Positions 6,541-64,000 of a DNA stretch of 64,000 nt are shown here, piece after piece. Position 1 is the stretch's first letter. Each line of letters begins with the position of its first letter. The position numbers were made by a program, and so were the translations under genes. This stretch comes from Siphonodentalium dalli (lineage: Eukaryota > Mollusca > Scaphopoda > Gadilida > Siphonodentaliidae): contig CP136069.1 of assembly GCA_032622095.1 (NCBI GenBank), positions 71,075,319 to 71,139,318 on the forward strand, written 5' to 3'. The notes under the pieces were generated by a model. It did not search any database. It was not told the origin of the DNA and saw nothing but the letters and a program-made list of their open reading frames with translations.

Positions 6541-7095
6541 CATTGCACGCAGATCATAGTGACCATATACACATAATGTGTAGTGTATATCTCATATATA
6601 TTTTGAAGACCTCTGTCTGTATGTCTGTCTGTCTGTCTGTCTGTCATTAATACAAATCTACGATTCTCGACCGATCGGGACGAAACTTGGTACGTGTGTG
6701 TAGATTGACCAGGCGGTGAACGTTGTCGTATTGGCGAGCCCGTGTAGCGCCCGCTTCGCGCATGCGCAGACCAGATCTCGGAAACGGGTGGAGCTATCGA
6801 CTTGAAATTTGCTATGTGAATGTATCTTGCCCCTGATACGAATTTTATCGGGTCGCCGAGCCCGTGCGACACCAGCTTCGCGCATGCGCAGACGAGATCT
6901 CGGAAACGGGTGGAGCTATCGACTTGAAATTTGCTATGTGAATGTATCTTGCCCCGGATACGAATTTTATCGGGTCGCCGAGCCCGTGCGACGCCAGCTT
7001 CGCGCATGCGCAGACCAGATCTCGGAAACGGGTAGAGCTATCGACTTGAAATTTGGTTTTTGAATAGCCCGGACAACGTCGGGCTCATCGGCTAG

Positions 7096-7610
7096 TCTCA
7101 TATATATTTTGAAGACCTCTGTCTGTTTGTCTGTCTGTTTGTCTGTTTGTTTGTTTGTCATTTATACAAATCTACGATTCTCGACCGATCGGGACGAAAC
7201 TTGGTGCGTGTGTGTAGTTTGACCAGGCGGTGGACGTTGTCGTATTGGCGAGCCCGTGCGAATCCAGCTTCGCGCATGCGCAGACGAGATCTCGGAAACG
7301 GGTGGAGCTAACGACTTGAAATTTGCTATGTGAATGTATCTTGCCCCGGATACGAATTTTATCGGGTCGCCGAGCCCGTGCGACGCCAGCTTCGCGCATG
7401 CGCAGACGAGATATCGGAAACGGGTGGAGCTATCGACTTGAAATTTGCTATGTGAATGTATCTTGCCCCGGATACGAATTTTATCGGGTCGCCGAGCCCG
7501 TGCGAATCCAGCTTCGCGCATGCGCAGACCAGATCTCGGAAACGGGTAGATCTATCGACTTGAAATTTGGTTTTAGAATAGCCCGGACAACGTAGGGCTC
7601 ATCGGCTAGT
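7096..7610. repeat. Segment duplicated at 10382-10896
   Basis: This part of the array matches the sequence 3,286 bp downstream, including unit-specific variants (ATATCGG in place of ATCTCGG, GAATCCAGC, GTAGGGCTC) and the same TCTG/TTTG pattern. The match ends inside the next header, where the microsatellite pattern switches. Confidence 0.85.
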
Positions 7611-8162
7611 CTCATATATATTTTGAAGACCTCTGTCTGTATGTCTGTCTGTCTGTCTGTCTGTCATTAATACAAATCTACGATTCTCGACCGATCGAGA
7701 CGAAACTTGGTACGTGTGTGTAGTTTGACCAGGCGGTCGTCGTTGTCGTATTGGCGAGCCCGTGCGGCGCCCGCTTCGCGCATGCGCAGACGAGATCTCG
7801 GAAACGGGTGGAGCTATCGACTTGAAATTTGGTATGTGAATGTATCTTGCCCCGGATACGAATTTTATCGGGTCGCCGAGCCCGTGCGACGTCAGCTTCG
7901 CGCATGCGCAGACGAGATCTCGGAAACGGGTGGAGCTATCGACTTGAAATTTGGTATGTCAATGTATCTTGCCCCGGATACGAATTTTATCGGGTCACCG
8001 AGCCCGTGCGACGCCAGCTTCGCGCATGTGCAGACCAGATCTCGGAAACGGGTAGAGCTATCGACTTGAAATTTGGTTTTTGAATAGCCCGGACAACGTC
8101 GGGCTCATCGACTTGAAATTTGGTTTTTGAATAGCCCGGACAACGTCGGGCTCATCGGCTAG

Positions 8163-10175
8163 TCTCATATATATTTTGAAGACCTCTGTCTGTTTGTCTG
8201 TCTGTTTGTCTGTTTGTTTGTCATTTATACAAATCTACGATTCTCGACCGAACGGGACGAAACTGGGTAAGTGTGTGTAGTTTGACCAGGCGGTGGACGT
8301 TGTCGTATTGGCGAGCCCGTGCGGTGCCAACTTCGCGCATGCGCAGACGAGATCTCGGAAACGAGTGGAGCTATCGACTTGAAATTTGCTATGTGAATGT
8401 ATCTTGCCCCGGATACGAATTTTATCGGGTCGCCGAGCCCGTGCGACACCAGCTTCGCGCATGCGCAGACCAGATCTTGGAACCGGGTGCAGCTATCGAC
8501 TTGAAATTTGGTATTTGAATGTATCTTGCCCCGGATACGAATTTTATCGGGTCGCCGGGCCCGTGCGACGCCAGCTTCGCGCATGCGCAGACGAGATCTC
8601 GGAAACGGGTGGAGCTATCGACTTGAAATTTGCTATGTGAATGTATCTTGCCCCGGATACGAATTTTATCGGGTCGCCGAGCCCGTGCGACGCCAGATTT
8701 GCGCATGCGCAGACCAGATCTCGGAAACGGGTGGAGCTATCGACTTGAAATTTGGTTTTTGAATAGCCCGGACAACGTCGGGCTCATCGGCTGGTCTCAT
8801 ATATATTTTGAAGACCTCTGTCTGTTTGTTTGTCTGTCTGTATGTCATTTATACAAATCTACGATTCTCGACCGATCGGGACGACACTTGGTACGTGTGT
8901 GTAGTTTGACCAGGCGGTCGACGTTGTCGTATTGGCGAGCCCGTGCGGTGCCCGCTTCGCGCATGCGCATACGAGATCTCGGAAACGGGTGGAGCTATCG
9001 ACTTGAAATTTGCTATGTGAATGTATCTTGCCCCGGATACGAATTTGATCGGGTCGCCGAGCCCGTGCGACGCCAGCTTCGCGCATGTGCAGACCAGATC
9101 TCGGAAACGGGTGGAGCTATCGACTTGAAATTTGGTTTTTGAATAGCCCGGACAACGTCGGGCTCATCGGCTAGTCTCATATATATTTTGAAGACCTCTG
9201 TTTGTCTGTTTGTCTGTATGTTTGTTTGTCATTTATACAAATCTACGATTCTCGACCGATCGGCATGCGCAGACGAGATCTCGGAAACTGGTGGAGCTAT
9301 CGACTTGAAATTTGCTTTGTGAATGTATCTTGCCCCGGATATGAATTATACCGGGTCGCCGAGCCCGTGCGACGCCAGCTTCGCGCATGCGCAGACGATA
9401 TCTCGGAAACGGGTGGAGCTATCGACTTTGAAATTTGGTTTTTGAATAGCCCGGACAACGTCGGGCTCATCGTGCGACGCCAGCTTCGCGCATGCGCAGA
9501 CCAGATCTCAGAAACGGGTATAGCTATTGACTTGAAATTTGGTTTTTGAATAGCCCGGACAACGTCGGGCTGGGTAGAGCTATCGACTTGAAATTTGGTT
9601 TTTGAATAGCCCGGACAACGTCGGGCTCATCGGCGGAGCTATCGACTTGAAATTTGGTTTTTGAATAGCCCGGACAACGCGACGCCAGCTTCGCGCATGC
9701 GCAGACCAGATCTCGGAAACGGGTGGAGCTATCGACTTGAAATTTGCTATGTGAATGTACCTTGCCCCGGATACGAATTTTATCTGGTCGCCGAGCCCGT
9801 GTGACGCCAGCTTCGCGCATGCGCAGACCAGATCTCGGAAACGGGTAGAGCTATCGACTTGAAATTTGCTTTGTGAATAGCCCGGACAACGTCGGGCTCA
9901 TCGGCTAGTCTCATATATATTTTGAAGACCTCTGTCTGTCTGTTTGTCTGTTTGTTTGTCTGTCTGTCATTTATACAAATCTACGATTCTCGACCGATCG
10001 GGACGAAACTTGGTTCGTGTGTGTAGTTTGACCAGGCGGTCGACGTTGTCGTTGACTTGAAATTTGCTATGTGAATGTACCTTGCCCCGGATACGAATTT
10101 TATCGGGTCGCTGAGCCCGTACGACGCCAGCTTCGCGCATGCGCAGACGAGATCTCGGAAACGGGTGGAGCTATC
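8163..10175. repeat. 2.0-kb segment duplicated at 10896-12908
   Basis: Line-by-line comparison shows the same sequence 2,733 bp downstream, including one-off variants such as the truncated header at 9241-9265, the ATGAATTATACCGGG variant and the collapsed footers at 9560-9680. No mismatch was seen on inspection. The match ends near 12908, where the second copy diverges (TATCAACTCG). Confidence 0.88.
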
Positions 10176-13099
10176 GACTTGAAATTTGGTATGTGAATGT
10201 ATCTTGCCCCGGATACGAATTTTATCGGGTCGCCGAGCCCGTGCGACGCCAGCTTCGCGCATGCGCAGACCAGATCTCGGAAACGGGTAGAGCTATCGAC
10301 TTGAAATTTCGGGCTGGGTAGAGCTATCGACTTGAAATTTGGTTTTTGAATAGCCCGGACAACGTCGGGCTCATCGGCTAGTCTCATATATATTTTGAAG
10401 ACCTCTGTCTGTTTGTCTGTCTGTTTGTCTGTTTGTTTGTTTGTCATTTATACAAATCTACGATTCTCGACCGATCGGGACGAAACTTGGTGCGTGTGTG
10501 TAGTTTGACCAGGCGGTGGACGTTGTCGTATTGGCGAGCCCGTGCGAATCCAGCTTCGCGCATGCGCAGACGAGATCTCGGAAACGGGTGGAGCTAACGA
10601 CTTGAAATTTGCTATGTGAATGTATCTTGCCCCGGATACGAATTTTATCGGGTCGCCGAGCCCGTGCGACGCCAGCTTCGCGCATGCGCAGACGAGATAT
10701 CGGAAACGGGTGGAGCTATCGACTTGAAATTTGCTATGTGAATGTATCTTGCCCCGGATACGAATTTTATCGGGTCGCCGAGCCCGTGCGAATCCAGCTT
10801 CGCGCATGCGCAGACCAGATCTCGGAAACGGGTAGATCTATCGACTTGAAATTTGGTTTTAGAATAGCCCGGACAACGTAGGGCTCATCGGCTAGTCTCA
10901 TATATATTTTGAAGACCTCTGTCTGTTTGTCTGTCTGTTTGTCTGTTTGTTTGTCATTTATACAAATCTACGATTCTCGACCGAACGGGACGAAACTGGG
11001 TAAGTGTGTGTAGTTTGACCAGGCGGTGGACGTTGTCGTATTGGCGAGCCCGTGCGGTGCCAACTTCGCGCATGCGCAGACGAGATCTCGGAAACGAGTG
11101 GAGCTATCGACTTGAAATTTGCTATGTGAATGTATCTTGCCCCGGATACGAATTTTATCGGGTCGCCGAGCCCGTGCGACACCAGCTTCGCGCATGCGCA
11201 GACCAGATCTTGGAACCGGGTGCAGCTATCGACTTGAAATTTGGTATTTGAATGTATCTTGCCCCGGATACGAATTTTATCGGGTCGCCGGGCCCGTGCG
11301 ACGCCAGCTTCGCGCATGCGCAGACGAGATCTCGGAAACGGGTGGAGCTATCGACTTGAAATTTGCTATGTGAATGTATCTTGCCCCGGATACGAATTTT
11401 ATCGGGTCGCCGAGCCCGTGCGACGCCAGATTTGCGCATGCGCAGACCAGATCTCGGAAACGGGTGGAGCTATCGACTTGAAATTTGGTTTTTGAATAGC
11501 CCGGACAACGTCGGGCTCATCGGCTGGTCTCATATATATTTTGAAGACCTCTGTCTGTTTGTTTGTCTGTCTGTATGTCATTTATACAAATCTACGATTC
11601 TCGACCGATCGGGACGACACTTGGTACGTGTGTGTAGTTTGACCAGGCGGTCGACGTTGTCGTATTGGCGAGCCCGTGCGGTGCCCGCTTCGCGCATGCG
11701 CATACGAGATCTCGGAAACGGGTGGAGCTATCGACTTGAAATTTGCTATGTGAATGTATCTTGCCCCGGATACGAATTTGATCGGGTCGCCGAGCCCGTG
11801 CGACGCCAGCTTCGCGCATGTGCAGACCAGATCTCGGAAACGGGTGGAGCTATCGACTTGAAATTTGGTTTTTGAATAGCCCGGACAACGTCGGGCTCAT
11901 CGGCTAGTCTCATATATATTTTGAAGACCTCTGTTTGTCTGTTTGTCTGTATGTTTGTTTGTCATTTATACAAATCTACGATTCTCGACCGATCGGCATG
12001 CGCAGACGAGATCTCGGAAACTGGTGGAGCTATCGACTTGAAATTTGCTTTGTGAATGTATCTTGCCCCGGATATGAATTATACCGGGTCGCCGAGCCCG
12101 TGCGACGCCAGCTTCGCGCATGCGCAGACGATATCTCGGAAACGGGTGGAGCTATCGACTTTGAAATTTGGTTTTTGAATAGCCCGGACAACGTCGGGCT
12201 CATCGTGCGACGCCAGCTTCGCGCATGCGCAGACCAGATCTCAGAAACGGGTATAGCTATTGACTTGAAATTTGGTTTTTGAATAGCCCGGACAACGTCG
12301 GGCTGGGTAGAGCTATCGACTTGAAATTTGGTTTTTGAATAGCCCGGACAACGTCGGGCTCATCGGCGGAGCTATCGACTTGAAATTTGGTTTTTGAATA
12401 GCCCGGACAACGCGACGCCAGCTTCGCGCATGCGCAGACCAGATCTCGGAAACGGGTGGAGCTATCGACTTGAAATTTGCTATGTGAATGTACCTTGCCC
12501 CGGATACGAATTTTATCTGGTCGCCGAGCCCGTGTGACGCCAGCTTCGCGCATGCGCAGACCAGATCTCGGAAACGGGTAGAGCTATCGACTTGAAATTT
12601 GCTTTGTGAATAGCCCGGACAACGTCGGGCTCATCGGCTAGTCTCATATATATTTTGAAGACCTCTGTCTGTCTGTTTGTCTGTTTGTTTGTCTGTCTGT
12701 CATTTATACAAATCTACGATTCTCGACCGATCGGGACGAAACTTGGTTCGTGTGTGTAGTTTGACCAGGCGGTCGACGTTGTCGTTGACTTGAAATTTGC
12801 TATGTGAATGTACCTTGCCCCGGATACGAATTTTATCGGGTCGCTGAGCCCGTACGACGCCAGCTTCGCGCATGCGCAGACGAGATCTCGGAAACGGGTG
12901 GAGCTATCAACTCGAAATTTGCTATGTGAATGTATCTTGCCCCGGATACGAATTTTATCGGGTCGCCAACTTCGCGCATGCGCAGACGAGATCTCGGAAA
13001 CGGGTGGAGCTATCGACTTGAAATTTGGTTTTTGAATAGCCCGGACAACGTCGGGCTCATCGGCTAGTCTATTATATATTTTGGAAGATCTGTCTTTTC

Positions 13100-23029: not shown

Positions 23030-24950
23030 TTACTGATTGAATATGAATCGTTTGGTTCTTAGGATATACTTTTGTACTTCTCTGAAAGTGGTTATATTAT
23101 CGTCATGTAACAGTTCAGTGGAACCACGGAGTAGCACCTCGGTTGTAATGTTGCAAAGGCCAGACACTGTGGTTAGTAATGAAGATCTTTGTGAGTCGTA
23201 TCTTTCGCATTCGAGTAAATAATGTTCGGTATCCTCTAGCTCACCGCAAGCGCACATGGGTTGGTCAGAAACAAAATTTGAATAGGTGTGGTAATTTAAG
23301 TGGCTACAGTGCAGTCTAAGTCGAGAGTGCAAAACCTGCGCATCGCGTGTATAGGCATAATAAAACCATTTAGGGATACTGTTCATGTTAGAATTCAATG
23401 ACTTTGAGAATGTCACTATTGAATCCATGGCAATCCTGCTTGTGTCAAGGTTATTCCACAAAGTGGTTGTCGATGGAAGGCAGGATCTTCTGTGATATTC
23501 ATTATCGAAAACTGGAACCATGAAACAATTGCCTTGTCTGGTGACACGTCCCGATATCTGACTGTGAGTTGGAGGTACTAAAGTTCTTAGATATATTGGT
23601 GCATGGCCATACACCATCTTGTAGAATAGCTTCAGTTTGTATTTTTCACGTCGTGATTTTAAAGTTTCCCAACCAGTTTCTGCTAGGAGTGTCGACTTAC
23701 TGACATACCTAGTGGCACCCGTTACGATGCGATCTGCTTCATACTGTATATTTTCAATAGCATCAGATTCCTGTTGCACACAACCATCCCACACTACACA
23801 ATAATATTCAAGAACTGATCGAATCAGAGTGAAGTAACATTTTTCAAGACTAGCTCTGTCAAGATAAAATCGATATTTTCTTAGTAGGGAAATACGTTTC
23901 CTGGCAGTATTCGTCATTTCATTGATGTGGGGACCCCAGCAACCATCTTTACTCAAAATAACACCGAGGTGCTTGTGTGAATTGACTACCTTAATGGGCT
24001 GTTGATTCATAGTCAGAGTTGGGTGGCTTAGAGTATTGCGTTTTCGAGTACACGTTAATGCCTCTGTCTTAAGTTCATTGAATTTAACGAGCCATGTGGA
24101 GGACCATTCTTCGAGTCGTATAATATCATGTTGCATCATAATTGCCCCAGTGTTAGGGTCATCGGTTGACAGCGCAATCGAAGTGTCGTCGGCAAAAAGA
24201 CGAATATTACATGTCATGTTGTCAACAATGTCGTTAATAAACATAAGAAATAGGATAGGACCCTATATCTACCCTTGGGGCACTCCTGCAGTTATTTACC
24301 CCCACGTTGATTGGCCAGAGCGTAGTATTACACACTGTTGGCGATCGGAAAGGTATGATTTGAACCAACACAACATATTATCGCGAATTCCTATTGCATG
24401 AAGGTTAAAAAGTAGACCCTCGTGCCAGACTTTATCAAACGCTTTACTTATGTCAAAGAATACTAATCGAATGTCGCGCCCTTCGTCCAAAGATTTACTA
24501 ATTTTGTCAAATATGTCACATAGTTGATAGGCAGTTGAGTCGGCGGGAACAAACCCGGACTGACGTTTAGTTAGAATATTATTCGATTGGAGATATGCCA
24601 TAAGGTGTTTAGCGATGCATTTTTCAAATAACTTGCTTATACAGCTTAAAAGTGAGATTGGCCGGTAATTCGCCGGATTGGTTCGGTCTCCTTTTTATGT
24701 ATTGGTACAACGTTTGCGCGTTTCCATTGCGGAGGAAAGTATGATTCTTGGATAAAACGGTTGAAGATTTTGGAAAGAGGCTTACTTAAGCTTGTGCAGT
24801 TCTTTAACAGACGTGGGCTAATAAGATCAGGTCCAGATGCCTTATCAGGTTGGAGTTCTTTTATAGCATTATAAACTTCCAGCTCGGTTATATTTATATC
24901 ACTCAGTGTGCACGTGGTCAGATTAGGGCCATCCGGTATATTTTATACAA
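23030..24950 (-). pseudogene. 5'-truncated Jockey/CR1-type LINE reverse transcriptase
   Basis: Read on the minus strand, this is the reverse-transcriptase part of a non-LTR retrotransposon. Blocks in order are LQPDKASGPD, VVPIHKK, the NYRPISLLS block, LVFFDISKAFDKVWH, GVPQG, and the catalytic FADDT, followed by a C-terminal region ending in a CACGELEDTEHYLLEC zinc-knuckle-like motif. A one-base deletion in an A-run (24692-24696) shifts the frame after HKK. Three in-frame stops (24296-24298, 24269-24271, 24263-24265) flank GVPQG. The remaining 404 codons to the terminal stop are open. The endonuclease domain and any first ORF are absent, so the copy is 5'-truncated and dead. Confidence 0.88.
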
Positions 24951-26122: not shown

Positions 26123-26308
26123 TAAAGTGCGATTCACCTCCGAGAGTTGAACATGCATCGACAGATTCTCCGAAAGGAAAGAAAACGTATCACGCGGGAG
26201 ACCAGCTGCTGTACACTTGTAACTTCGGCTACCAGCGCCATGGGAAGCAACCACGGGCCATGTGTCAGAGTGATGGGAGTTGGGTCAGTCCGGACATCTC
26301 GTGTCGAG
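26123..26308 (+). CDS. CCP domain exon 1 (first recognised)
   Basis: This 186-nt phase 1-1 exon codes for one complete CCP module. It follows a TTTGCAG acceptor and ends at CGAG|GTTAGT. The module begins KCDSPPRVEHA, has Cys2 in YTCNFGYQ, Cys3 in MCQSDGSW and Cys4 in SCR, so all four cysteines and the signature Trp are present. The phase-1 entry (two bases completing a codon begun upstream) shows that at least one earlier exon exists. None was recognised in the preceding 26 kb, which is dominated by repeats. The region between Cys1 and Cys2 is Lys/His rich. Confidence 0.88.
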
Positions 26309-28773: not shown

Positions 28774-28947
28774 CTAGGAACTGTGGATATCCCGGAGAGG
28801 TAGATAACGGGTGGATGGACGGGTACGAATATAACTACCCTCACCGCGTGACCTACCACTGTAACGAGGGGTACGAGCTGCAGGGTAAACCATATCGGGA
28901 ATGCCAAGCGAACGGGGAGTGGTCGGGAACGCTCCCGAGGTGCGAAG
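28774..28947 (+). CDS. CCP domain exon 2
   Basis: This 174-nt phase 1-1 exon follows a pyrimidine-rich acceptor (TTATTTTTCAG) and ends at GAAG|GTAAGT, a consensus donor. It encodes a canonical CCP module: Cys1 in NCGYPGEVDNG, Cys2 in YHCNEGYEL, Cys3 in ECQANGEWSG and Cys4 in PRCE. The GY after Cys2 and the NG..W before Cys4 are textbook CCP residues. Together with the previous exon it gives an open linker of three residues (G-A-R) between the modules. Confidence 0.92.
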
Positions 28948-33234: not shown

Positions 33235-33995
33235 ATATCATTTATCATTCAATATGACTATGTTATGCGGCTAAGAAAAAGTATCGTTGGTGACAATGAG
33301 GCATGTATTTTCTGTGAAAGAGGAAATAATTAAAGTTCTGAGAATTTTCATTGGATATTACCTTGGATATCTCCCCTCCCCACCTGAATTGTTTTTACCT
33401 CAACATCAGTTAATCTTATTTTATCATTCAATACATGATGACTATGCGAATAAGAAAAACTATCATTGGTGACAAGCAAGCATGTCTTTTCTTCGGCCGA
33501 GGCGTTAATAGTTTGGAAATTTGTGTAGACTATTGAAAAATTTAGGCGGTGGTAGGGCAGGCGGGGTTTTCGGAGGGGGGGGGGGGGTGAGATAAACTGG
33601 GTAATTTGAACTAATTTCCAATCTGTAATGACTCTGCTGATGAAAAAACATACCGGTACTTACTTGTCACCATGGATATATTTTCTTAGTCGAATTGTCA
33701 TATTGAATGATAAAATTAGACTAACTGTCAAGGTAAGATAAATTCAGAGGGGGGGGGTAAACTAGCTAAATTTTAAGTAAAATTCTTCAAACTTTAATTA
33801 TTGCCTCTTTCACAGAAATCACATGCCTCTTTGACACCGATGATGGGGTGGGGGAATAATCTGGGTAATTTAATTTTCAACAAAAATAAATTCCGCACTG
33901 TATTAAATGGCTCTGCTGAAGATAAAACATACTTTGTTGTCACCAATGATAGTTTTTCCGAGTCACATACATTTAGTCATATTGAATGATAAAAT
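33235..33995. repeat. Large foldback with four copies of one motif and a central G-run
   Basis: TATCATTCAATATGACTA followed by a TAAGAAAAA...ATCATTGGTGACAA block occurs twice on the plus strand (33238, 33417) and twice inverted (33663-33719, 33932-33990). A run of about 14 G at 33576 lies near the centre. Open frames here are by-products. Confidence 0.7.
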
Positions 33996-40441: not shown

Positions 40442-40615
40442 CTGTGGAATGTCAGGAACTGAGTCCTCCTTTGCACGGCACGATGGTTGGGAACGGCCGT
40501 GACTACGGAACCGTGGTGAGATTCTTCTGTAACGATGGTTACAAGGTGGTTGGGTCAAAAGACAGGAAGTGTTTGGCGGACCGAACTTGGAGCGGACGGG
40601 AGGCCATATGTGAAG
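40442..40615 (+). CDS. CCP domain exon 3
   Basis: This 174-nt phase 1-1 exon follows the acceptor TTGATTTCAG and ends at GAAG|GTACGC. The CCP module has Cys1 in VECQELSPP, Cys2 in FFCNDGYKV, Cys3 in KCLADRTWSG and Cys4 in AICE. It is separated from exon 2 by the longest intron in the window (11.5 kb), in which no further CCP exon was recognised. It ends in phase 1, which matters for the alternative exons that follow: it can join directly to either intact half-exon but not to the second-half exon at 48463. Confidence 0.92.
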
Positions 40616-41235
40616 GTACGCTTGACGATCATTCTATAGTCTGTTTTTATTTTCTCAACGCGAATAAACATATTCAACCCGTGCTGAATATTTCTATTGC
40701 AACAAGTCGTAATCAGCATTCATAATCATTCATTCGTATAACGTTTCAGTGGGATTCCTCACAAGATAATTCGGTTGTGACTCCTTCGCAGATGCTATTT
40801 CTCAGCCCTTCGCACCATTTCGCGTATGTCGTTTTAAGAAATTAACACTGAATGCACTATCTGGACACTTAAGTCCAACATGTAATCAAAGTCATACTCA
40901 ATCATTGTTGGGCGACTCTCAAAATGCGTTTGTTGAATTTTCTCACAATTCCTACACGTCACTTCATCAGGCACTGTATTCCCCACATTCCGTGTGCCTT
41001 CTTTCCTCTCTCTCTCTGCACTTATACACGCTTTCCTTATTTCTACCACATCTACCCCATCTACCAATGCACACTTGCCTCATCGAGGATCATTCTACCC
41101 TCCACCTACCCCATGCATATTTGTCTCATTAAGCTGTCCTCCATCTACCCCATATACATTTATATCATTAAGGTACCCCACCCTCTACTTCCTTGCCAAG
41201 TTGACTCATTCTAACACAGGAATTGTTCACACCAG

Positions 41236-41292
41236 AAAAAATTGCGGACACCAGAGCCAATAGCGAATTGATATATGGACGAATACAGGAAC
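41236..41292 (+). pseudogene. Decayed copy 1 of the first-half CCP exon
   Basis: This matches the intact half-exons downstream, including the upstream intron context TTCTAACA and an acceptor-like ACACCAG, then the coding start AATTGCGGACACC. It has lost one base before the first Cys codon and further bases in the Pro/Gly stretch. Similarity stops before the GTGGG/GTCGG segment, so the 3' half and the donor are missing. The following sequence is CT-rich low-complexity repeat. It cannot serve as an exon as it stands. Confidence 0.6.
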
Positions 41293-41426
41293 ATCTACCC
41301 CCATGTCTCATTCTATCTCCACTGATGTACCCTCAGACTACCACATACACGTGTGTCTCATTAAGCTGGCTTCCATTTACCCCATGCCCATATGCCTCAT
41401 TCTAACATAGCAACGTTTCACATCAG

Positions 41427-41490
41427 ATATAAATTGCGGACACCAGCTAATTGATATATGGACGAACATATAGGACCATCTATACCCCAT
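41427..41490 (+). pseudogene. Decayed copy 2 of the first-half CCP exon
   Basis: The intron side (TCTAACATAG, then TTTCACATCAG) and the beginning ATAAATTGCGGACACC match the intact copies. About a dozen bases are missing from the Pro-Gly-Pro-Asn region, an in-frame TAG appears about 16 codons in, and no donor follows. Together with copy 1 it shows that this half-exon has been duplicated at least three times and that some copies died. Confidence 0.6.
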
Positions 41491-42016
41491 GCAAATATGT
41501 CTCATTCTATTCCTTCTATAATCCAACTACCCCCACTCACGTTTGTCTCATTACGCTACTCTCTCTACCCCATACATACTTGATCACCCTACCCCGATCG
41601 ATTTACCGGAATGCACGTTTGTCTCATTAAGATACCCTACGCATACCCCTTCAGCCTGTTCTGCTTTAAATTTGCTTATATTGAACTTATTTAGAAAAAA
41701 CACACAAATATGCCCATATTGGCATTATTTTGAATTATTTGCGCTCTATATGAACCCAAATCGACTTACCAGATGTACGATATTTATAATGTGTTTCACT
41801 GTGGCCCGCTCCATAAAACGGAATAACGGCTATAGGTCCACTATGGGATTATTTCAGAATCAAAAATTTCAATATGAACTTCTGTGAATATTTAGGTCCA
41901 ATGTGAACCTATTTGCACGAGGATGTGTTTACCTCATACATATTTGTCTCAGTAAGCGACCCCGTATACCACCATACACGTCTGTCGCATTCTAACATAG
42001 GAATTTTTCACACCAG

Positions 42017-42101
42017 AGATAAATTGCGGAAGCCCAGGGCCATTAGTGAATGGACGTCTGCTCGGACACGGATCAATGGTGGGAGACATATTCTACTTCA
42101 G
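42017..42101 (+). CDS. Alternative first-half CCP exon, copy A
   Basis: This 85-nt exon enters in phase 1 and leaves in phase 2. It lies between TTTTTCACACCAG and the donor CAG|GTACTTAC. It encodes the N-terminal half of a CCP module: INCGSPGP, then NG, a Gly/His-rich loop, and the beta strand GDIFYF just before Cys2. The Cys2 codon itself lies in the exon at 48463. At protein level it matches copy B at about 16 of 27 residues, with the structural positions (C, G, P-G-P, N-G, V-G, F-Y) kept. Preserved frame and splice sites despite this divergence suggest both copies are functional. Use of both copies, or of neither, would shift the reading frame. Confidence 0.82.
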
Positions 42102-42467
42102 GTACTTACGGTCAGGGGGCGTGGCTACAGGGTCCCAATGCATTGAAGGGTGTACACTGCGCGATCCACATTAAAATTTCCATCTCCACCCCCTTGAAAA
42201 GTCTCCATGAATTACCGACAAGAAAACCATAAACATTGAGAACAATTTAAACATAAGTTTGGTGTGCATTTCCAACTCTTGAAAATTTTGACAAAACTTG
42301 GAGAGTTAAACAATGACACATGCCCCCCTTGTCGCTACGCTCCTGGCCCCACCTTTAGTGTGTATTCGTCCTTCCCTCTAATCCTTTCCCACTAGTCTCA
42401 GTAAACTACCCTCCTTCTACCCCCTTGCACATTTGTCTCATTCTAACAGCGGAATTTTTCACATCAG

Positions 42468-42552
42468 AGATAAATTGCGGACACCCGGGACCGATAGCGA
42501 ATGGCTATCTGGACGGACACAGGACCACAGTCGGAGCAGTATTCTATTACAG
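42468..42552 (+). CDS. Alternative first-half CCP exon, copy B
   Basis: This exon has the same length (85 nt), phases (1 in, 2 out), acceptor context (TTTTTCACATCAG) and donor (GTACTTAC) as copy A, 366 bp upstream. It encodes INCGHPGPIANG and ends VGAVFYY before the Cys2 codon. Differences from copy A fall mostly in the loops between Cys1 and Cys2, which are surface positions in the CCP fold. It splices in frame to the second-half exon at 48463. Which copy is the default, and whether choice is tissue-specific, cannot be read from the sequence. Confidence 0.82.
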
Positions 42553-43563
42553 GTACTTACACAAACAGCAATTCAGAGTATAATCTTAAATACATAACAA
42601 AAACAATTCGATTTAAATACATTCTGTGTACGTGATGGCATGGATCAGACATGCGTAGCAATGGGACTGAATCCTACTTTGCAGTTTGGTACTTACTTAG
42701 ATCATGGCATGAATCTACTGTGGCTACCTCATTGAGATCATATTCCACCAGATCAAATATGGGAACTTTTTCTCTGACTGAAAATTGTATAGCGTCGAAA
42801 ACAGTGTTCTTACATGAAGGAAATACAAAACATGATATAGGTAATATATCTCTTAGTTGGCACATGCATGTTCCTTAATAATGTATGTCATAGTATTTGG
42901 AGGACCCTGTTCGAGATTATATAAATTAGTCCAATTTTGGGAGCCGATTTCTTGGTAATATGAATTGAAAATTTGTGATAATTAACATACTGTGCAATAC
43001 ATTATTAAGGAACATGTACTATGGCTAAGAAATATGTCATCTACATTATTTTTCCGATGTTATAATGTTCCCAGAACATACGCAGCCAGAGTAAATAATC
43101 ATGCCATGATCTAGTACTTACAATCTGGCGACAAAATATGCCGATAAATACACATCCTGCTACATGTAATATAGACTTCATATGTCGGATATGCCGTGAA
43201 ATGCCTACCTATATACCAAATCAATATATCAGCTCTTTTCAACGTTGAAATATATCTGCTCTTTTTAACGTTTCACACATATATGAAACAGCCGCTCTCT
43301 ATGTTTACCATATCATGAAGAGTCTATAACACGGAACGCTCTTCAATGTATAACGCCGAAGAAAAAGCGCGATCTCTATCTGGGCGTACATTTCGCAGAA
43401 CTTCGATACGGTTTCCGAGGAATAGATATATTGCGTATTTTTATGTAATTCGTTCATATATTTATCGACATAATCATTTTGATCATCGAGCCGAAACAAG
43501 AGCAATATACCTGTAAATGTGTATAGGTCTGATTTGAGATCTGAAGATCACCACTCACTTTAA

Positions 43564-43792
43564 CCCTTCCATAACTAGAGCTTCCTGAAATTTTGCGAAA
43601 ACCCTAGCTTGTATACCAATGCATTCTGTGAGAATACATTGGCGTACCAATATTAATATTTACATTGACCTTGTAAGCCAGTGCTTTCTCTTATTTATGC
43701 GAGGGTCCCTATATGGGAGACTCTCATACACAAGATGATACACTGGAAAATGTTATTTAATGCTGCACCAGCGCAACTCCGTCGTGGAAGTG
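43564..43792. mobile_element. TTAA-flanked MITE, family 1 (complete)
   Basis: TTAA|CCCTTCCATAACTAGAGC at the left, and AACTCCGTCGTGGAAGTG|TTAA at the right. The hairpin core is shortened compared with other copies. Confidence 0.75.
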
Positions 43793-45479
43793 TTAAAAGG
43801 CACAATCCGTTTTTGTAAGTGGCATAGCATTCGCCAAATTGTGCAGTCAAGCCAGCGTCAATACTGTGAAGCACATCGTCAAATCAATTGAGATAGTTGA
43901 AGTCCATGGATTCTGCATCAAGTCCAACAATTTATTATATGCTTCCCCATTAGATAGTGGGTAATTGCCGTGGCGTAGAACTTTCTATCAATTCAATCAC
44001 CTGGACCGAGGGCTTAATAACACTGACCATAAATAACACCATATATAGTATTACCCTCTTGGAGATCAATTCCGAGTTATTAGCGGATGCAAACATTGCC
44101 CTTTCCGACATAAATGTCAAAGGCACGGGCGGCGTTCGTTGCAGAAATATTTATGTTTCTTCAAATCGCCATCAACAGAAGAAACACCAAAATATATACA
44201 GTTCCGCTCATATGCCAAACATAATCAGCGCGTAAATAGTATATTGTCGCCAAGACCTACGATAGTGTACGTAAACAAGAGACTGTTCGTGTTACAGAAG
44301 TTGTGCTTCTGTTTACATAACACAGCGCTATTCTATTGGTTAATCACACAAAAATGATATAAACGCTCTTTATTATTTCCATATCAGGAAGATAGTAACA
44401 AAAACGCTCTTTATGTTTACCATATCCGGATCTAAACAAAGGCCAGGAAACGTAACGTTTTTTGCTTTTGTTTACATAACAAAGGGGGGGGGGTGACAAT
44501 AACATAATGTTTATGCCATATTTCTGATTGGCATAAGAACAAAGTCTGTCTATATTTTACTATTCCTGCTGTTTATGGCGGTTTTTGACGGAGGTGAATA
44601 TTTTAACAGCATACCCACCGCCAACACCGCCAGTATCTTTAACATAAGATCGATAGCTCTATAAACATTTCACTCTGAACAGCAATCGATGCAACTTGCG
44701 CGATAGCGCCATCCAGGGTGGGGTGACTACGTCATTATTTGCTCAAATTGGCGACACAAAGTCACACATCGAAGTGAGTATTCACCGTTTTTTTCATCTA
44801 TAAAATAATTCAACCAAAAAAGGTCGCGAAAGAGCTATGTATCATCAGCTTTTGCCCTAACCACTATGAATCCATCGAAATAAATATCACTGTTGATAAT
44901 ATAAACGTCTCATTATTCTAATAGCTTGCTGATATCTTTTGAAGAACAAAACGAATAATGAAATTGGCAAGCGTGATATCATGCCGCCATTTACGAGCTA
45001 ATGATGATGGATGTTCCCGGCACCATCTACTAACGCTGATTAACTTGTAGACCAACCCCGTACATGACAGCTTATTTCCATCAATTACTGCATGTTAACA
45101 ACATATATTGGACCTGGCATACAGAGAGCTGAATATATGACATATAGACACCCAGGTTAAGTAATTGGACCTGCTAATTTGGTATGGTGCTGGTGAGTCC
45201 TGTTGACTTGCTATGATGTTGGCGGGGAAAACCGATATACAAAGTACCGTTATCTTTTCATTTGTTTTCATTTTCGCCACGGTTGACCAATCAGAGCGAT
45301 TTGAGGAAAAGCCAGTGTCTGCATATGAAACATTCAAGAACATATACAATTCAAAATATTTCAATTATGGCTGCGCTGGTGTTTATCACAAAGAACAAGG
45401 CCATTGGTATACTATTTTATAGTATACATGTCCTTCAATGTTGTATTCTAGTAAATTGATTTGGACTAATTTGGTGTCA

Positions 45480-45732
45480 AGCCTTGAAATAGTGAGCCTG
45501 TCATTTGAAGAATGAGGTCCCCAGAGGGATAATTTTGTGATGCTACACCGCATAGCGGACTGGCATCACCAAATTTACCCTCTGTGAACCCCATTCTGCT
45601 GAGGTGTAAGCAGAATGAGGTCCACAGAGGGTGAATTTGGTGATGCTAGCCCGCTATGCGGGGTAGCATCACTAAATTCACCATCTGGGGACCTCATTCT
45701 GCAAATGACAGACACACTATTTCAAGGCTTGT
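45480..45732. mobile_element. Inverted-repeat MITE with 9-bp target duplication
   Basis: The terminal arms AGCCTTGAAATAGTG and CACTATTTCAAGGCT are inverted, and TTGGTGTCA is duplicated at 45471-45479 and 45733-45741. The interior is a second palindrome (CAGAATGAGGTCC, GGGTGAATTTGGTGATGC and complements). A 9-bp duplication fits Mutator-like elements. Confidence 0.75.
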
Positions 45733-46812
45733 TTGGTGTCACATCGGACGTGGCATCTTTAAATAAGTTCTCTTGAATAGTATACTCTTAGAATAAATGT
45801 GCATACATTCTACACCATATTTGTTACATTGTATCTTAAACACAATTGTGTAGAAATGACACAATCATGACATATATGTGACGTGTGTAATTTCCTCAAA
45901 TGTGAATATGATTAATTATGTGATTGCATCATAGTTATCAGATGAGATTTGTTCTACAAAACTTGTAAAGGCTACCACAGAACAAAATAGTGGCAGCAGC
46001 TTTAAAATGTGTTTGTTGTGTTTGTGTCAAAAATTAACAGCACAATTGTGTAGCACACAGTTTTAAGGCTGCTGTCAGAGTTGTAATGTGTAACTCAAAT
46101 AAACAATAATATCTTATCTACTAACTATAATATACTCACATATTCACTCATATTCAATGTTGAGAAAATTCCTCCGACACAGTCGTCAATTGCCTCATCC
46201 GGATGTTGTTGCAATTATCAGCTAATTACCTGTTCAAGCAAATGCATGGACGGAATCGATATCGTGTTCGTTGAATGTGTACATGTATACTTACCTAACA
46301 TCATGCCAGCAATTACCGTATTGATAATTACAATGATATTACATACACAAGTATAACAATACACCTTTCGCTTTCTCCTGCGTACATGTGATTGGTCAAG
46401 GGGCTTGGACACGCTTCGTAGTGACAATCTTTCTTACCTGATAGATGGGGTCCATCCCTGCACTACAACACGCAGTGATATTCTGACCGTGGCAGTACGC
46501 ATGTCATATACATTACGTATCTGTATAAACAATTCCACAGTTACCATACCACGGAAATAAATTAATGGATAATAACTGATAAGCGAAACGGTCAAATACG
46601 ATAATCTAGTTGGGGATAAAGGAGTGTGTTGCATGACTATACTCCCTTACTAACATTTTGTTTCAGATCCATACAAATACTAATATGACTCTACATTGTT
46701 CACGGGGGAGCATAACATGTGACAATTACAGCGTGTGTTTCCATTTTGAGTTAGCCATCGAACACCGATAATTCGGACAGTAATACTGCTTCGGAATGTC
46801 TATCGACTCAAA

Positions 46813-47037
46813 GGCCGGATTCGTCATCTCCAATTTAAAACACCGAGTTTAAACCTGGTTTAAATCTCCATTGATGGTCCAGCTAAACCGGGTCTAAGGG
46901 GGCGTTTGTGATCGTTCAGTGCCTCGCTGATTCGGCGAGATGAGCATGCAATCAAACTATCGAGTTACCAGACAACGGTTTAAGCCACAGGTTTCCGTGC
47001 GTAAACCAGGTTTAACCAAGAGATGACAATTCCCGCC
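46813..47037. mobile_element. Inverted-repeat MITE
   Basis: Ends GGCCGGATTCGTCATCTC and GAGATGACAATTCCCGCC are inverted copies, with AAACCTGGTTTA / TAAACCAGGTTTA just inside. Target duplication unclear. Confidence 0.55.
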
Positions 47038-47135
47038 TGAGTGTGTTGATAGCAATAGATGTTCTAGTATAAATAAATCTTTGAATTGTTCACCCACAAT
47101 AATAGCTTTATATGCAATCTAAGTATTTAGTGTTA

Positions 47136-47200
47136 GTGGCCGAACAACATACTGTATCAATTCCCAAAGCGAAATTATACCAAATATGTTGTTCGGCCAC
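47136..47200. repeat. Perfect hairpin
   Basis: GTGGCCGAACAACATA and its exact complement pair around a 33-base loop. Confidence 0.8.
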
Positions 47201-48462
47201 TTACAATTTTATAAGGCCATGCATAAATGCAACAAAAATACGTTGATTGCTTATAATTACGCCAAGGTACTTTGATTTCAACATATTAGAAACAATTGCC
47301 GTACATGTACCTCAAATGTGTTTGTTGTCAAAATTCACAATTTCCGTTAGTCGAGTATCCAGTTGAAACGAATGGATGAAATTTTATTGGCCGATTTTGC
47401 CTATACGATGAAAATGCGCGATACAAGACGTTCAAGGCCGCTCAAGTCCCAAAATGAAATGGACGCAGATGAACAACTAACAATTGTGTCATTAAACATC
47501 ACTTTGCGAATTGGAAAATACAAATTAGATACTATCTGAAGTTGACGTGAATCCGCCTAATGCATTGGCATTCTGTAATTATATCTTCAATTTTAAATTA
47601 CGCCTTCGAAAATTGAATTTGAAGTTTGCCGATTCGCAGTATGCTGTTATCCATCTGAGTGTTACGGTGAAGCCAGTTATCACCACAACTGTTTGGAGAT
47701 AAATTATTGTTTGATATCTTTTCTTATCACACAATGCAACAAAGTGATAAGTTTTTGCTTTGAAGCGAACACATTCAATTCACTGAGAAAGGATTATTAG
47801 CCAAGGACACATCGTAAACACACTAGGGAAATTCGCCCCCTACCCCTGGACTATCGATTCGCGCGAATGTTAACCATTCCCAAATTACTATACACCTGTA
47901 ACTCGGCCACTTACATCTTTATCGATAAATACAAGCAACAAGTGAGGCGTTGTCAGGACTTGTCCAATCAAATCGAGGAAAATGAGAGAGAAATAGAGGT
48001 GTAATTCTAGTTCACGGGCGTAGTTTTTTTTACCTCTGTGTAGTTTATCGTCGGAATTAGAGATCGTAGACACGTTTGTTTGTTTTATAAACGTCTAATC
48101 GGTCGTTCATCAATTTCGACCAATAAAGTTTCCGCCCAAAATTAATATTCTGTGATCTCTCGAATTATACTTGGTACTTCGCGACATTGTACCGTACAAG
48201 TAAATGTATAGTATATATCACACTAAAGTTGAACATTCAGGACAGTCTTAATAAATACTGACATATTTGTAAACAGTCTTGTGAATTCGGTAGTTGAAAA
48301 TAGCGACTATAGACTTTATAAGTGTTAGGTCTCTGATAGTAGCAGGGTATCATATATTTTAATCTGCGTTTGTTAACTTCCCTACATTTCATGTGGTATG
48401 TGTGATTATCTTACGCATTATAACCTGGTAAAATGTGTACTTGATTTCGATATTGTTGACAG

Positions 48463-48554
48463 ATGTAACGTGTACACGACATTTGAGGGCGGATCTTTCA
48501 ACACGCAGTGCATGGAGAACGGACATTGGTCGGAACCGCCTCCGAAATGCTGGG
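48463..48554 (+). CDS. Second-half CCP exon shared by copies A and B
   Basis: This 92-nt exon enters in phase 2 and leaves in phase 1. It lies between TGTTGACAG and the consensus donor G|GTAAGT. Its first base completes an Arg codon, and it then runs C-N-V-Y...GGSFNTQC, ENGHW, PPPKCW, giving Cys2, Cys3, the signature Trp and Cys4. The segment after Cys2 lacks the usual GY/GF pair and reads YTTFEGG instead. The phases fit only the half-exons at 42017 and 42468; joining it directly to the exon at 40442 breaks the frame. The intron before it is about 5.9 kb. Confidence 0.85.
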
Positions 48555-49668: not shown

Positions 49669-51331
49669 TTAGAGATACATGTGTTCTCCTTTAAATATTT
49701 GTAAATGATTATTTTTTTTAAATGGGGTTCGTCCTGGCCATGTTTCACTTTTGCAAAGTTGGGTATGTCAGCTCCTGTGGCGCAGCCTTTTGGCGCGTAA
49801 GACAAGGTCTCTGTAAACAAAAAAACAAAGCACACATCACAGATGAACATCTTTAGAAGTCTCATTCAGATTTGATTTATATTGCAGAAAAAACATCCAC
49901 TGATTGATTTAAACATATTTTAATTGACGGAGAGATGGCAGTTACATGATTTTGGTATTGGAGGACAAGTTCTCAACAAATGAGATATACCTCCCTAAGT
50001 TATACGTGGTTATACTTAAGTCACTTTAAATTCTGGTACTTGTGCTGGTTGTTGTGGGTCATATGCCAATCTGGGATATTCAGATGTGTGATTTTTTACA
50101 TTATGCTTCTTCTGTTCACCCAGGGACGTTGTGACAGTGGATTTGGGGTGTCTACCCTCAACTTAGGTCAAATGTTCAACAGTTTGAGATTTCATGACTG
50201 ACACATTAGTTGGGACATTTCACTCCATATATAGGTTGAATTTTTTTCGCAATGTTTGAAAAGTAACATATATTTCTACTTTTAGTCAAACTTTTTTTTT
50301 TTTTTTTTTTGCATGATCTAGAGAAATTAAGTATGTTTACACCATGAAATGGTCATCAGTTGGAAATTTTACAACCTTATGGGGTGTCAGGTTGAAAATA
50401 TTTCCAACAGTTAGCAAGTTCCAACCCAAGGGGGCGCGAATTATATTTCGCGAACATGGGAGTTTGGTCTCGTTCAAGATTCAAGGGGTGCAGTTGGGCA
50501 TTTCAAGGTGGACGGGCACCCACTAGACACGTCCCTGTTCACCTCATGAGATTCTTAGTGGGGCGTCTATTATGACTGGCATAGTTATTGCTTATGTAGA
50601 GGCTAGGTTCAGGCCACTAGGAGCGTATTTTCGAGCAAATGCACTTCTAAAGTAGCAATACCCGATTTATTGTGTTGTAGGGGGTCTGCAAACTAGAAAA
50701 ATAAGTATCTAGGCGGCATACTGTGACAGGTATGTGTGACATTACTGGTCTAATGATTAAATATTTTACAAAACTGGCAAGTTCACAAAAAAATTTAAAA
50801 ACATTTATACGTAACATGATTTTCGTATTCAGTGCAGGCCAACACCGTGTGTTTTGTTGTAGGAAAATAGCCCGATTTATCTCCCCTGAATTCTGTCATC
50901 CGCTTTTTGTGAGATTCTCACCATAGCTTGTTTTCTATTTCAAATATTTCTAAGGTCTAACATAGCTCTGTCAGGTGGAAGAAGCCTATTTACTGACATT
51001 TGCTCTGTCAGGTCTGCCTTTGGGTTGAAAATGTTCAATTTGAGTCAAAAATTGTTAAAATTGTGAATTTTGTATAACTCAGGCATAACTCAGTGACAAG
51101 TTGTACGAAGTAACTAAAATACAGTTATTTGTTTACAACTACCATTTCTGTCGACAATAACAAATGCTTGATGGGACCATGCTTAATGGCTCAGAATAAA
51201 TTTGAAGTACAGTACCCCCTCCCATGTTGGCCAAAATTGCTGCAAATTGTGTATTGCAACCTAAGTTATGGCCCTTTAGTTTCCCAAATAATTATTGAGA
51301 CCTATTCGATCAACAATGTTTTCACTTTCAG

Positions 51332-51508
51332 GTCAATGTCAGATTCCGAGCATTAACGAGGGGAAGGTTGCCATGGGAGCGGAAGGCCTGTACGTGGATC
51401 ACAGAACGGTTATCGAGTTTAACTGTGAGAACGGACTTCATATCAACGACACACGTGATGTGATGTGTATCAACGGTTCATGGACGTACATACCCAGATG
51501 CGTACCGG
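51332..51508 (+). CDS. CCP domain exon after the split module
   Basis: This 177-nt phase 1-1 exon follows the acceptor TTCACTTTCAG and ends at CCGG|GTGAGT. The CCP module has Cys1 in QCQIPSINEG, Cys2 in FNCENGLHI, Cys3 in MCINGSWTY and Cys4 in PRCVP. The loop before Cys2 carries GAEGLYVDH, longer than in exons 2 and 3. The linker from the previous exon is W-G-Q. Confidence 0.92.
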
Positions 51509-51884
51509 GTGAGTGCTCATACAGTGCGACATGTTGTTAGGCCTTGATCAAACGCACGCGCTGTTTTTAGATTAGCTAACACTGTTTATTACATGATCCT
51601 ACTCTTATTCCATTCAATAAACTCATTCTAAAGAGTGTGATATTAAACGTTCGTTTAATAACAGGAAATTGTACCAGGTGACCTTTGACTTCCGGTTTCT
51701 TGCATGTTTACATTCCGTACGCTACGTTTTAAAATACTATGGCTTCCAATATTTTTCCAACAAACTGTAATGAATGAAGAGTTTGAAAAGTTATGTCATT
51801 AAATAATATACGCTATTAAATACGCCAAAGATTCTTTATTTATCTGGGACTATTTCTTTACGCGGACAAACAAAGCATAGTTCA

Positions 51885-55132: not shown

Positions 55133-55306
55133 CACCGTGCGAGAAGCCCCCACCGACCATCGAACACGGATGGAGGGTGTTCATGGGACAGAGTCACGGG
55201 GACAAGTCACGATACTTCTGCCGCGATGGATATAAAATCGATGGTGATGAATATATGCAATGTCAGTATGGTATCTGGGTGGACAACACCCCCACGTGCA
55301 TAGAAG
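55133..55306 (+). CDS. CCP domain exon, penultimate
   Basis: This 174-nt phase 1-1 exon follows the strong acceptor TTCCTTTTTCAG and ends at GAAG|GTGGGT. The CCP module has Cys1 in PCEKPPPTIEHG, Cys2 in YFCRDGYKI, Cys3 in QCQYGIWVDN and Cys4 in PTCIE. It is complete and canonical, with an acidic strand (IDGDEY) between Cys2 and Cys3. Confidence 0.93.
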
Positions 55307-56421: not shown

Positions 56422-56714
56422 TCCACTGCAAAAATCCTGGAACACTGGAGCACGGACAGATATATAAAACAGGCAAGGAGGGGAAGTTTAAGTTCCAGAA
56501 GTATATCGTGACCATCCGACACGGAGCAAGGCTTGAGTACGAATGCGATCGCAACTTCATGCTCGATGGACCCCCATCTGGGGCGACGTGCATCAACGGG
56601 GTATGGAGCCCGAATGAGAAACCGCGGTGCGTGCGCGGAACACACCCGCTGTTCCGGAAGATATGGCGGCCAATCCAGGAAAAGGCGAACCCTTACGCAA
56701 ATCCGTTCAAATAA
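56422..56714 (+). CDS. Last CCP domain exon with C-terminal tail and stop
   Basis: This terminal exon follows TTGTTTTGCAG, enters in phase 1 and runs 97 codons to TAA. It encodes the last CCP module: Cys1 in HCKNPGTLEHG, a Lys-rich insertion of about ten residues (KTGKEGKFKFQ) before the strand GARLEYEC, Cys3 in TCINGVWSP and Cys4 in PRCVRG. A tail of about 25 residues follows, rich in aromatic, basic and proline residues (PLFRKIWRP near its start, NPYANPFK at the very end). There is no hydrophobic anchor, which supports a secreted product. The tail has no domain I recognise. Confidence 0.92.
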
Positions 56715-62906: not shown

Positions 62907-63632
62907 TCAAAAGTCCCACTCGCAGATGAATGAGTTGCTTTGGTCGCAACTGGTATAGTTTGTTACATACAATGTGAGAAGAACACACTTTTGTTGCGTA
63001 AACTCACTTCCGATGATAGCGCTTGGTACATGCATACTATCTGCGCCGACCCAGAAACCCTGTAGTTTTTCTTGAGGGTCCTGAAATTTTATTCTTTTGG
63101 TGACAGATTCCAATTGAGCATCGCTTCGGATTATGATCAAACGGCCTGCTTTCTTTGCACATATCGTCGCAGCATCAAACGATCTGACCATATTTGTGTA
63201 GATGAAGAACGCGAAGCGAGACATGTGTAGCCTTGTGGAATCTATATGTTCATTCCTACAGACAGATGCACCAGGGATGTTGTTAGATATTCCAATTATC
63301 ACGCAGTTGATGTCATGCCTCTGACGACAAGCAGACCCCAGAGCACAACTCCGAAGATGGGATATCCTTTCGTCAACAGAAAAACCAAGCTTGGAACTGG
63401 AGTTTGTGGTCATCATGCACAGATTGTCATCGAAACGGAATTGCTTACAGTCCATATAACATCGGCAAATATTCCGACAACGGAGAATATTTTGTGTACG
63501 TAAAATATAAGTAATTGCACTTACGTGTAAAGTCCAAGAACTCTTAAATACCACAACCCCGTTTAATGTAGATGAGCCACAGATATGATAACATAGATAG
63601 ACAATCAAAACCAATACGCCAGCACATGCCAT
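62907..63632 (-). CDS. Secreted PAN/apple plus C-type-lectin-like protein
   Basis: This is one uninterrupted reading frame of 241 codons ending in TGA. The start ATG (context AACATGG) is chosen because it opens a clear signal peptide, MACAGVLVLIVYLCYHI; the frame stays open upstream, so a longer start is possible but would bury the signal. Residues about 25-75 look like a PAN/apple module (RCRNICRCYMDC then FRFDDNLC). Residues about 140-241 are a C-type-lectin-like domain: Cys in TICAKKAGR, the WIGL-like FWVGADSM, Cys in QKCVLL, and the closing pair in SCDQSNSFICEWDF. The EPN/QPD and WND calcium-sugar motifs are not apparent, so carbohydrate binding is doubtful. Predicted to be secreted. It is convergent to the CCP gene and appears intronless. 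Confidence 0.75.
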   Translation of the reverse strand: MACAGVLVLIVYLCYHICGSSTLNGVVVFKSSWTLHVSAITYILRTQNILRCRNICRCYMDCKQFRFDDNLCMMTTNSSSKLGFSVDERISHLRSCALGSACRQRHDINCVIIGISNNIPGASVCRNEHIDSTRLHMSRFAFFIYTNMVRSFDAATICAKKAGRLIIIRSDAQLESVTKRIKFQDPQEKLQGFWVGADSMHVPSAIIGSEFTQQKCVLLTLYVTNYTSCDQSNSFICEWDF

Positions 63633-64000
63633 GTTGTTTAATTCCCAGGCGCTGTGATCGCGATATACAAATGTACAATGTACGTGTTTTCTGAGTTGAC
63701 TGTGATGATGGTATGGCGCCGTCGCCAAAATAGCAACTCATTTTAGTCCTTACCCACTCAACATTCGTTGACTGTTCTTGTGTTCGCAGCTCCAGTCGTT
63801 GTGAACTGTTGATGTAACTTGAAATATCGAAGTGAGTGTACAAGTGCCATCAGAGGGTCGAATGGAGCACCACTGAATTATCGACGACCCACTATACAGA
63901 TTAAAACTTACAAACGAATCAATAAAGCTCCAATCGTATTTATCCCACCAGTGGTCAACAATATGAATAATTTTATACCAGTAAATTGATAAGAATACAT
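63633..64000. other. Upstream flank of the PAN/C-type-lectin gene
   Basis: The frame of the lectin gene stays open for 32 codons upstream of the chosen start (another ATG at 63728). No TATA box or other promoter element could be assigned. Confidence 0.4.

Follow-up and report, generated by a model that had tools for sequence, protein, structure and literature searches.

We analysed a window of 64,000 nucleotides (nt) from the scaphopod Siphonodentalium dalli (NCBI GenBank assembly GCA_032622095.1, contig CP136069.1, positions 71,075,319 to 71,139,318 of the forward strand), in which a gene model built by hand on the plus strand comprises seven CCP (sushi) modules with AG/GT exon borders. The fourth module found is split between two exons, and its first half occurs in two alternative copies, exons A and B. 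The coding exons of the model are as follows, with positions counted from the first letter of the window.

26123-26308, plus strand: CCP exon n26, the first CCP in the window, phase 1-1; Pfam Sushi 44.7 bits (surrounding open stretch)
28774-28947, plus strand: CCP exon n28, phase 1-1; Pfam Sushi 50.8 bits (surrounding open stretch)
40442-40615, plus strand: CCP exon E1, phase 1-1, directly preceding the alternative pair; Pfam Sushi 41.1 bits
42017-42101, plus strand: exon A, phase 1 to 2, alternative first half of the fourth CCP found
42468-42552, plus strand: exon B, phase 1 to 2, alternative first half of the fourth CCP found
48463-48554, plus strand: exon C, 92 nt, phase 2 to 1, second half common to A and B
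51332-51508, plus strand: CCP exon n51, phase 1-1; Pfam Sushi 27.3 bits (exon)
55133-55306, plus strand: CCP exon n55, phase 1-1; Pfam Sushi 28.6 bits (surrounding open stretch)
56422-56714, plus strand: last coding exon found, a CCP followed by a short basic tail and a stop codon; Pfam Sushi 34.7 bits (surrounding open stretch)

All six unsplit modules are encoded by single exons that start in phase 1; five of them have phase 1 at their end as well, the last one running to the stop codon. Each exceeded the Pfam Sushi cut-off (PF00084, 20.7 bits), five as open stretches and n51 as an exon, the longer open stretch around n51 (51292-51537) having no Pfam match although the exon alone passes. The split module also exceeded the cut-off in both versions (23.8 and 29.8 bits for A+C and B+C, respectively), whereas C alone did not (17.5 bits). 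Of its four Cys, one lies in the first half and three in the second, and a single Trp stands between C3 and C4.

Exons A and B are 85 nt each and are entered after a phase-1 junction, and joining either of them to C gives 177 nt. They are identical at 61 of 85 nt and differ at the remaining 24 without any indel, and the encoded peptides share 16 of 27 residues. The upstream flanks agree at 42 of 52 nt, and both donors read GTACTTAC. Across the whole window, 52 candidates on the plus strand and 43 on the minus strand consist of 85 nt that are open in this phase and flanked by AG and GT; among these 95 exon-like frames only A and B are alike (16/27 residues), the runner-up matching A at 6 of 27. 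The likeness of A and B exceeds chance. An earlier reading of this DNA, made from the letters and their open frames (hereafter the sequence-only reading), had described two intact 85-nt half-CCP exons with a like acceptor context and the same donor, differing at about 11 of 27 residues, and an exon C entered in phase 2 after an exon ending in phase 1. Recomputed coordinates, lengths, phases and splice sites agreed with that description, and 11 differences were counted. The copy number was right for the intact copies, whereas two further, truncated relic copies had been overlooked; these were found with nhmmer and are described below.

In the gene model, the frame is kept when exactly one copy is joined to C, giving 450 open codons and then the terminal stop with either A or B. 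If both copies are included, the first stop falls at nt 4 of C, 439 nt upstream of the model's last junction; if both are skipped, C is read in the wrong frame yet stays open, and the first stop falls in n51, 221 nt upstream of the last junction. Recomputation thus bore out the earlier claim that only single-copy transcripts are open and that all-in and all-out products are frame-shifted, with the amendment that the all-out stop lies in n51 and not in C. Under the rule of nonsense-mediated decay (NMD), both wrong products are expected decay targets. With its predicted stops in C (both copies) and n51 (neither copy), the pair fits the type of mutually exclusive exons whose wrong combinations would be frame-shifted and purged by NMD.

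Three sequence criteria have been published for mutually exclusive exons, namely similar length, conserved splice sites and frame, and homology (PMC3228551; here and below, statements on cited papers refer to the available part of each source). A and B agree with all three, being 85 and 85 nt long, bordered by AG and GT with phase 1 to 2 in both, and identical at 61 of 85 nt. When these features were applied to the Drosophila X chromosome, exons showing them but annotated as constitutive or differentially included were present in 6 of 1705 genes (PMC3228551). In the likely reading of the locus, a tandem duplication has produced A and B as mutually exclusive exons that encode the opening half of the fourth CCP found; the protein has at least seven such modules, and the pair is probably used in this way. 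The copies are homologous, have intact borders and frames and compatible phases, produce premature stops when both or neither are taken, and are accompanied by two decayed sister copies. Each transcript would contain exactly one of A and B between E1 and C, and the two resulting isoforms would be distinguished by 11 of 27 residues within a single module. Both copies would be spliced, wrong combinations would be cleared by NMD, and a trans-acting regulator or an RNA structure would pick between two nearly equal splice-site pairs. The sequence-only reading had held in addition that exclusive use is enforced by intron phase. Exclusive use stands as the best reading, given the three published criteria, whereas phase as a splicing mechanism found no support, because phase merely makes the wrong products unreadable. 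The reading frame is a filter on wrong products and not a switch that enforces the choice.

The position of C also bears on whether A and B are partners at all. They could belong to different transcripts, one of them joined to an unrecognised second half or terminal exon, since the 5.9-kilobase (kb) intron before C is long enough for other exons to have been missed. We consider this arrangement very improbable, because profile searches of open stretches of at least 15 residues in all six frames found C to be the sole unpaired CCP second half in the window, and because the exit phases of A and B are identical and match C.

Mutually exclusive use would require that A and B are kept from being joined. 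Both are preceded by a branch-point-like motif at the same distance.

41990-41996, plus strand: branch-point-like TTCTAAC, 20 nt 5' of exon A
42441-42447, plus strand: branch-point-like TTCTAAC, 20 nt 5' of exon B

Steric interference operates when a donor lies within less than about 50 nt of a branch point (PMC5740500). The donor of A is 345 nt from the motif of B, which excludes steric hindrance between the two. Incompatibility between U2 and U12 sites was also rejected, as the model uses GT-AG sites throughout, which look U2-type by eye, with donors that pair with U1. Given this spacing and the uniform GT-AG sites, neither classical physical block applies. In principle, A can be joined to B across an intron of 366 nt (6,361 nt from A to C), and a productive gene therefore needs an active choice. 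The idea that the donors of A and B are unusually weak was dropped, their energy with U1 (-7.1 for both) falling between those of E1 (-5.6) and n26 (-7.6).

Ease of joining could itself be the point of the arrangement: the pair might serve mainly as a dose switch, with frequent joint inclusion or skipping lowering the protein through NMD and isoform choice being secondary. Joining A to B is mechanically open at these distances, and both wrong products stop well 5' of the last junction. A decay switch requires just one frame-shifting exon, and the keeping of two diverged, intact copies would be left unexplained, for which reasons we rate this explanation as highly improbable.

An RNA-pairing search of the flanks established no regulatory element that would act as an active chooser between A and B. 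The upstream flanks of both exons have a common pairing partner at 45553, which was equalled by none of 40 independent shuffles and 1 of 80 joint shuffles, and whose register of pairing differs between A and B. Taken singly, the upstream flanks were matched by 3 of 40 and 10 of 40 shuffles, and the downstream flanks of A and B had no shared partner beyond chance (25 of 40 shuffles were as good). The partner at 45553 is contained in a near-perfect inverted repeat of 254 nt (45478-45731; arms of 123 nt, 89% complementary, with an 8-nt spacer) that resembles a small transposable element and folds on itself with -194 kcal/mol. A docking-selector switch at 45553 was not accepted, as the hairpin would sequester the partner and the registers differ. 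Competing RNA structures with docking and selector sites would be a possible mechanism within mutually exclusive use, not an exclusive alternative to it, and switches of this kind have been described as arising through duplicated flanks (PMC6071210). In view of the hairpin, the registers and the shuffles of single upstream and of downstream flanks, we regard such structures as a very doubtful chooser here, despite the shared partner of the upstream flanks.

An nhmmer DNA profile built from A and B with their flanks gave ten matches in all, including A and B themselves and two decayed copies.

41184-41292, plus strand: relic R1, truncated half-CCP exon with upstream flank; nhmmer E 4.9e-19
41380-41469, plus strand: relic R2, truncated half-CCP exon copy; nhmmer E 1e-14

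The matches other than the exon copies were all weak, comprising the CCP exon near 28.8 kb (E 0.028) and five pieces of a short intron repeat (E 0.44 to 2.3). A deletion near the start of R1 shifts its frame: the entry frame remains open without still resembling a CCP, and the CCP-like frame runs into a stop. R2 has lost an internal segment, and its entry frame is interrupted by a stop. Both relics keep the acceptor AG and the branch-point-like TTCTAAC on the 5' side, and both have lost the 3' half and the donor. Aligned with each other, their exon parts agree at 40 of 44 positions, with 12 further columns gapped, and for each of them B is the closer of the intact copies. They may have arisen from B once A and B had separated, and for this reason the relics do not polarise the changes between A and B.

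The upstream flanks of the exon copies belong to the short intron repeat (about TGCACATTTGTCTCATT) that recurs around them in 41114-42445. Seven matches to a 20-base pattern from B's flank, with at most 3 mismatches, lie in this interval, against 0.02 expected, so that the exon copies sit in an intron-repeat array. This array may have driven the exon duplications. The octamer GTACTTAC, which forms the donors at 42102 and 42553, recurs at 42689 and 43114, within 600 nt 3' of B, and has a fifth copy at 33656. The two occurrences 3' of B were considered as ends of lost exons, which was unsupported, there being no homology around them.

The relics raise the question of whether both intact copies are maintained. 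The G+C contents of A and B (0.494 and 0.518, respectively) lie at the lower edge of the range of the model's seven other exons (0.497-0.569), compared with 0.415 for R1, 0.356 for R2 and a mean of 0.386 for the surrounding intron windows, of which about 6% reach the value of A and about 2% that of B. Drift was simulated, the criteria being an open frame and splice sites, with or without CCP residues. With one copy drifting by substitutions only, frame, splice sites and five CCP residues were all kept in 6.2% of runs if half of the divergence fell on that copy and in 0.5% if all of it did, and less often with indels; by frame and splice sites only, 33% and 13% survived, respectively. When both copies drifted, 11% of runs retained frame and splice sites, and 0.7% did so when four CCP residues were added.

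These figures are relevant to a simpler explanation, in which one copy works and the other is an intact but silent duplicate that is following R1 and R2 into decay. Of the four copies, two have already decayed, so copies have been made and lost here; B is nearer to the relics, A has the lower of the two Sushi scores, and at 0.41 the ratio of nonsynonymous to synonymous substitution rates (dN/dS) between A and B does not fall significantly short of 1 (Fisher p 0.085). Against silence of either copy, both have near-coding G+C, show no indel relative to each other and retain their two splice sites as well as the CCP residues tested, and neutral survival of one copy with the five residues is at most 0.062 (but 0.33 or 0.13 by frame and splice sites alone). 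We therefore find a silent duplicate unlikely, and selection on both copies is moderately, not strongly, supported by these comparisons.

Several observations weigh against mutually exclusive use as the explanation, among them the dN/dS just given. By the open-frame and splice-site criteria alone, two neutrally drifting copies would both remain intact with a probability of 0.11, and the CCP residues were picked after the alignment of the window's CCPs had been viewed, so the simulation figures flatter the case. The intron flank (42/52) is more alike than the exon (61/85), perhaps because the acceptor is under selection or because repeats exchange sequence. The pairing search established no element that would regulate the choice. 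Finally, neither the N-terminus nor the promoter was found and the model was built by hand, so the gene could be incomplete; the N-terminus and further exons were sought by eye and with motif patterns in plus-strand stretches of at least 38 residues between 13.5 and 26.1 kb and of at least 40 residues after 56.7 kb.

The effect of an exchange between A and B on the protein was considered on the E1 module, whose AlphaFold2 model had a mean predicted local distance difference test score (pLDDT) of 96.4. Three Foldseek matches to it reached E 0.001 or better, the first of which carries the label of a zinc-finger construct from an F-box protein, and the matches of E1 include CCP structures, such as factor B, CD46 and C2b entries. 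The A/B differences, placed on E1 by gapless alignment, fall at 3 of the 11 first residues, 2 of 4 positions of the first strand, 4 of 8 of the inter-strand loop and 2 of 4 of the exon-encoded part of the second strand. The earlier claim that they lie mostly in loops is correct as a count (7 of 11), whereas an enrichment is not borne out, changes being present at 7 of the 19 positions in loops and 4 of the 8 in strands (Fisher p 0.68). It is plausible that the swap affects one face of the CCP module. If both isoforms are made, a single gene would supply one CCP surface in two versions, and exon birth and death could be seen side by side at this locus, in two intact copies and two relics.

CCP modules split over two exons are known from vertebrate complement receptors. 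The similarity of the CCP chain to CR1, CR2, factor H and DAF is at the general CCP level only, and this likeness to complement receptors is best taken as that of the domain family. In the TGM family of Heligmosomoides polygyrus, one CCP extends over two exons, as here; the exons of TGM1 carry a Cys pair each, with one exon excepted, whereas the two halves here carry one and three Cys, and the available text on TGM1 describes no alternative first halves, unlike A and B (PMC10516467). LEV-9, Hig and Hasp are invertebrate secreted CCP chains, and the likeness consists in the CCP chain (PMC9083331). They differ from the gene described here in that a motif scan with hand-written patterns detected no WAP or Ig domains in the open stretches of the window, where the N-terminus of the gene was not found. 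Searches for relatives of the 450-residue A isoform gave four pattern matches in genomic contig collections and one in viral ones, none of which was confirmed.

Among known mutually exclusive exons, the closest precedent is given by exons 4 and 6 of Dscam, in which the first part of an extracellular domain is swapped (PMC1397879). The exon 4 and exon 6 clusters of insect Dscam comprise 12 and 48 copies, respectively, and concern an Ig fold (PMC3228551), whereas the present locus has two intact copies and concerns a CCP fold. Docking-selector pairing has been reported for Dscam exon 6 (PMC6071210), in contrast to A and B, for which no control element was established. In human, 377 of 629 mutually exclusive clusters (60%) have exons of non-triplet length, and joining reads were present in 83 of these 377 (PMC5740500). 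Such clusters follow the same frame logic as A and B, with the difference that they are supported by junction reads and A and B are predicted from sequence. The same study lists CD55 (DAF), a CCP protein, with a cluster of four mutually exclusive exons and a potential docker site, the encoded part of CD55 being unstated in the available text (PMC5740500). Among the papers listed by searches for mutually exclusive exons in sushi or CCP modules in the open-licence literature, of which coverage was partial, none dealt with alternative half-CCP exons. As tandem exon duplication, non-triplet length and exclusive use are well known, the pair probably adds an example and not a mechanism. A broader interpretation, which we put forward tentatively and hold to be possible at best, is that of a secreted multi-CCP protein in which the binding face of one CCP is switched by a swap of its first half, with an array duplicated and discarded through the local intron repeat, as a small CCP counterpart of the half-Ig exons of Dscam.

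No Rfam family matched at gathering thresholds. Elsewhere in the window, arrays of a 122-base-pair (bp) tandem repeat, in places with a 380-bp pattern, occupy 6735-11996 and underlie many of the open frames there. An open frame of 404 residues on the minus strand (23030-24244) has a weak reverse-transcriptase match (14 bits; cut-off 29.6) and is perhaps a transposon remnant. A second minus-strand open frame, of 273 residues (62907-63728), had no NCBIfam match and no PDB match at E 0.01; with its weak matches to C-type lectin (20.7 bits; cut-off 22.6) and PAN (14 bits; cut-off 21.4), it is possibly an exon of a neighbouring lectin gene.

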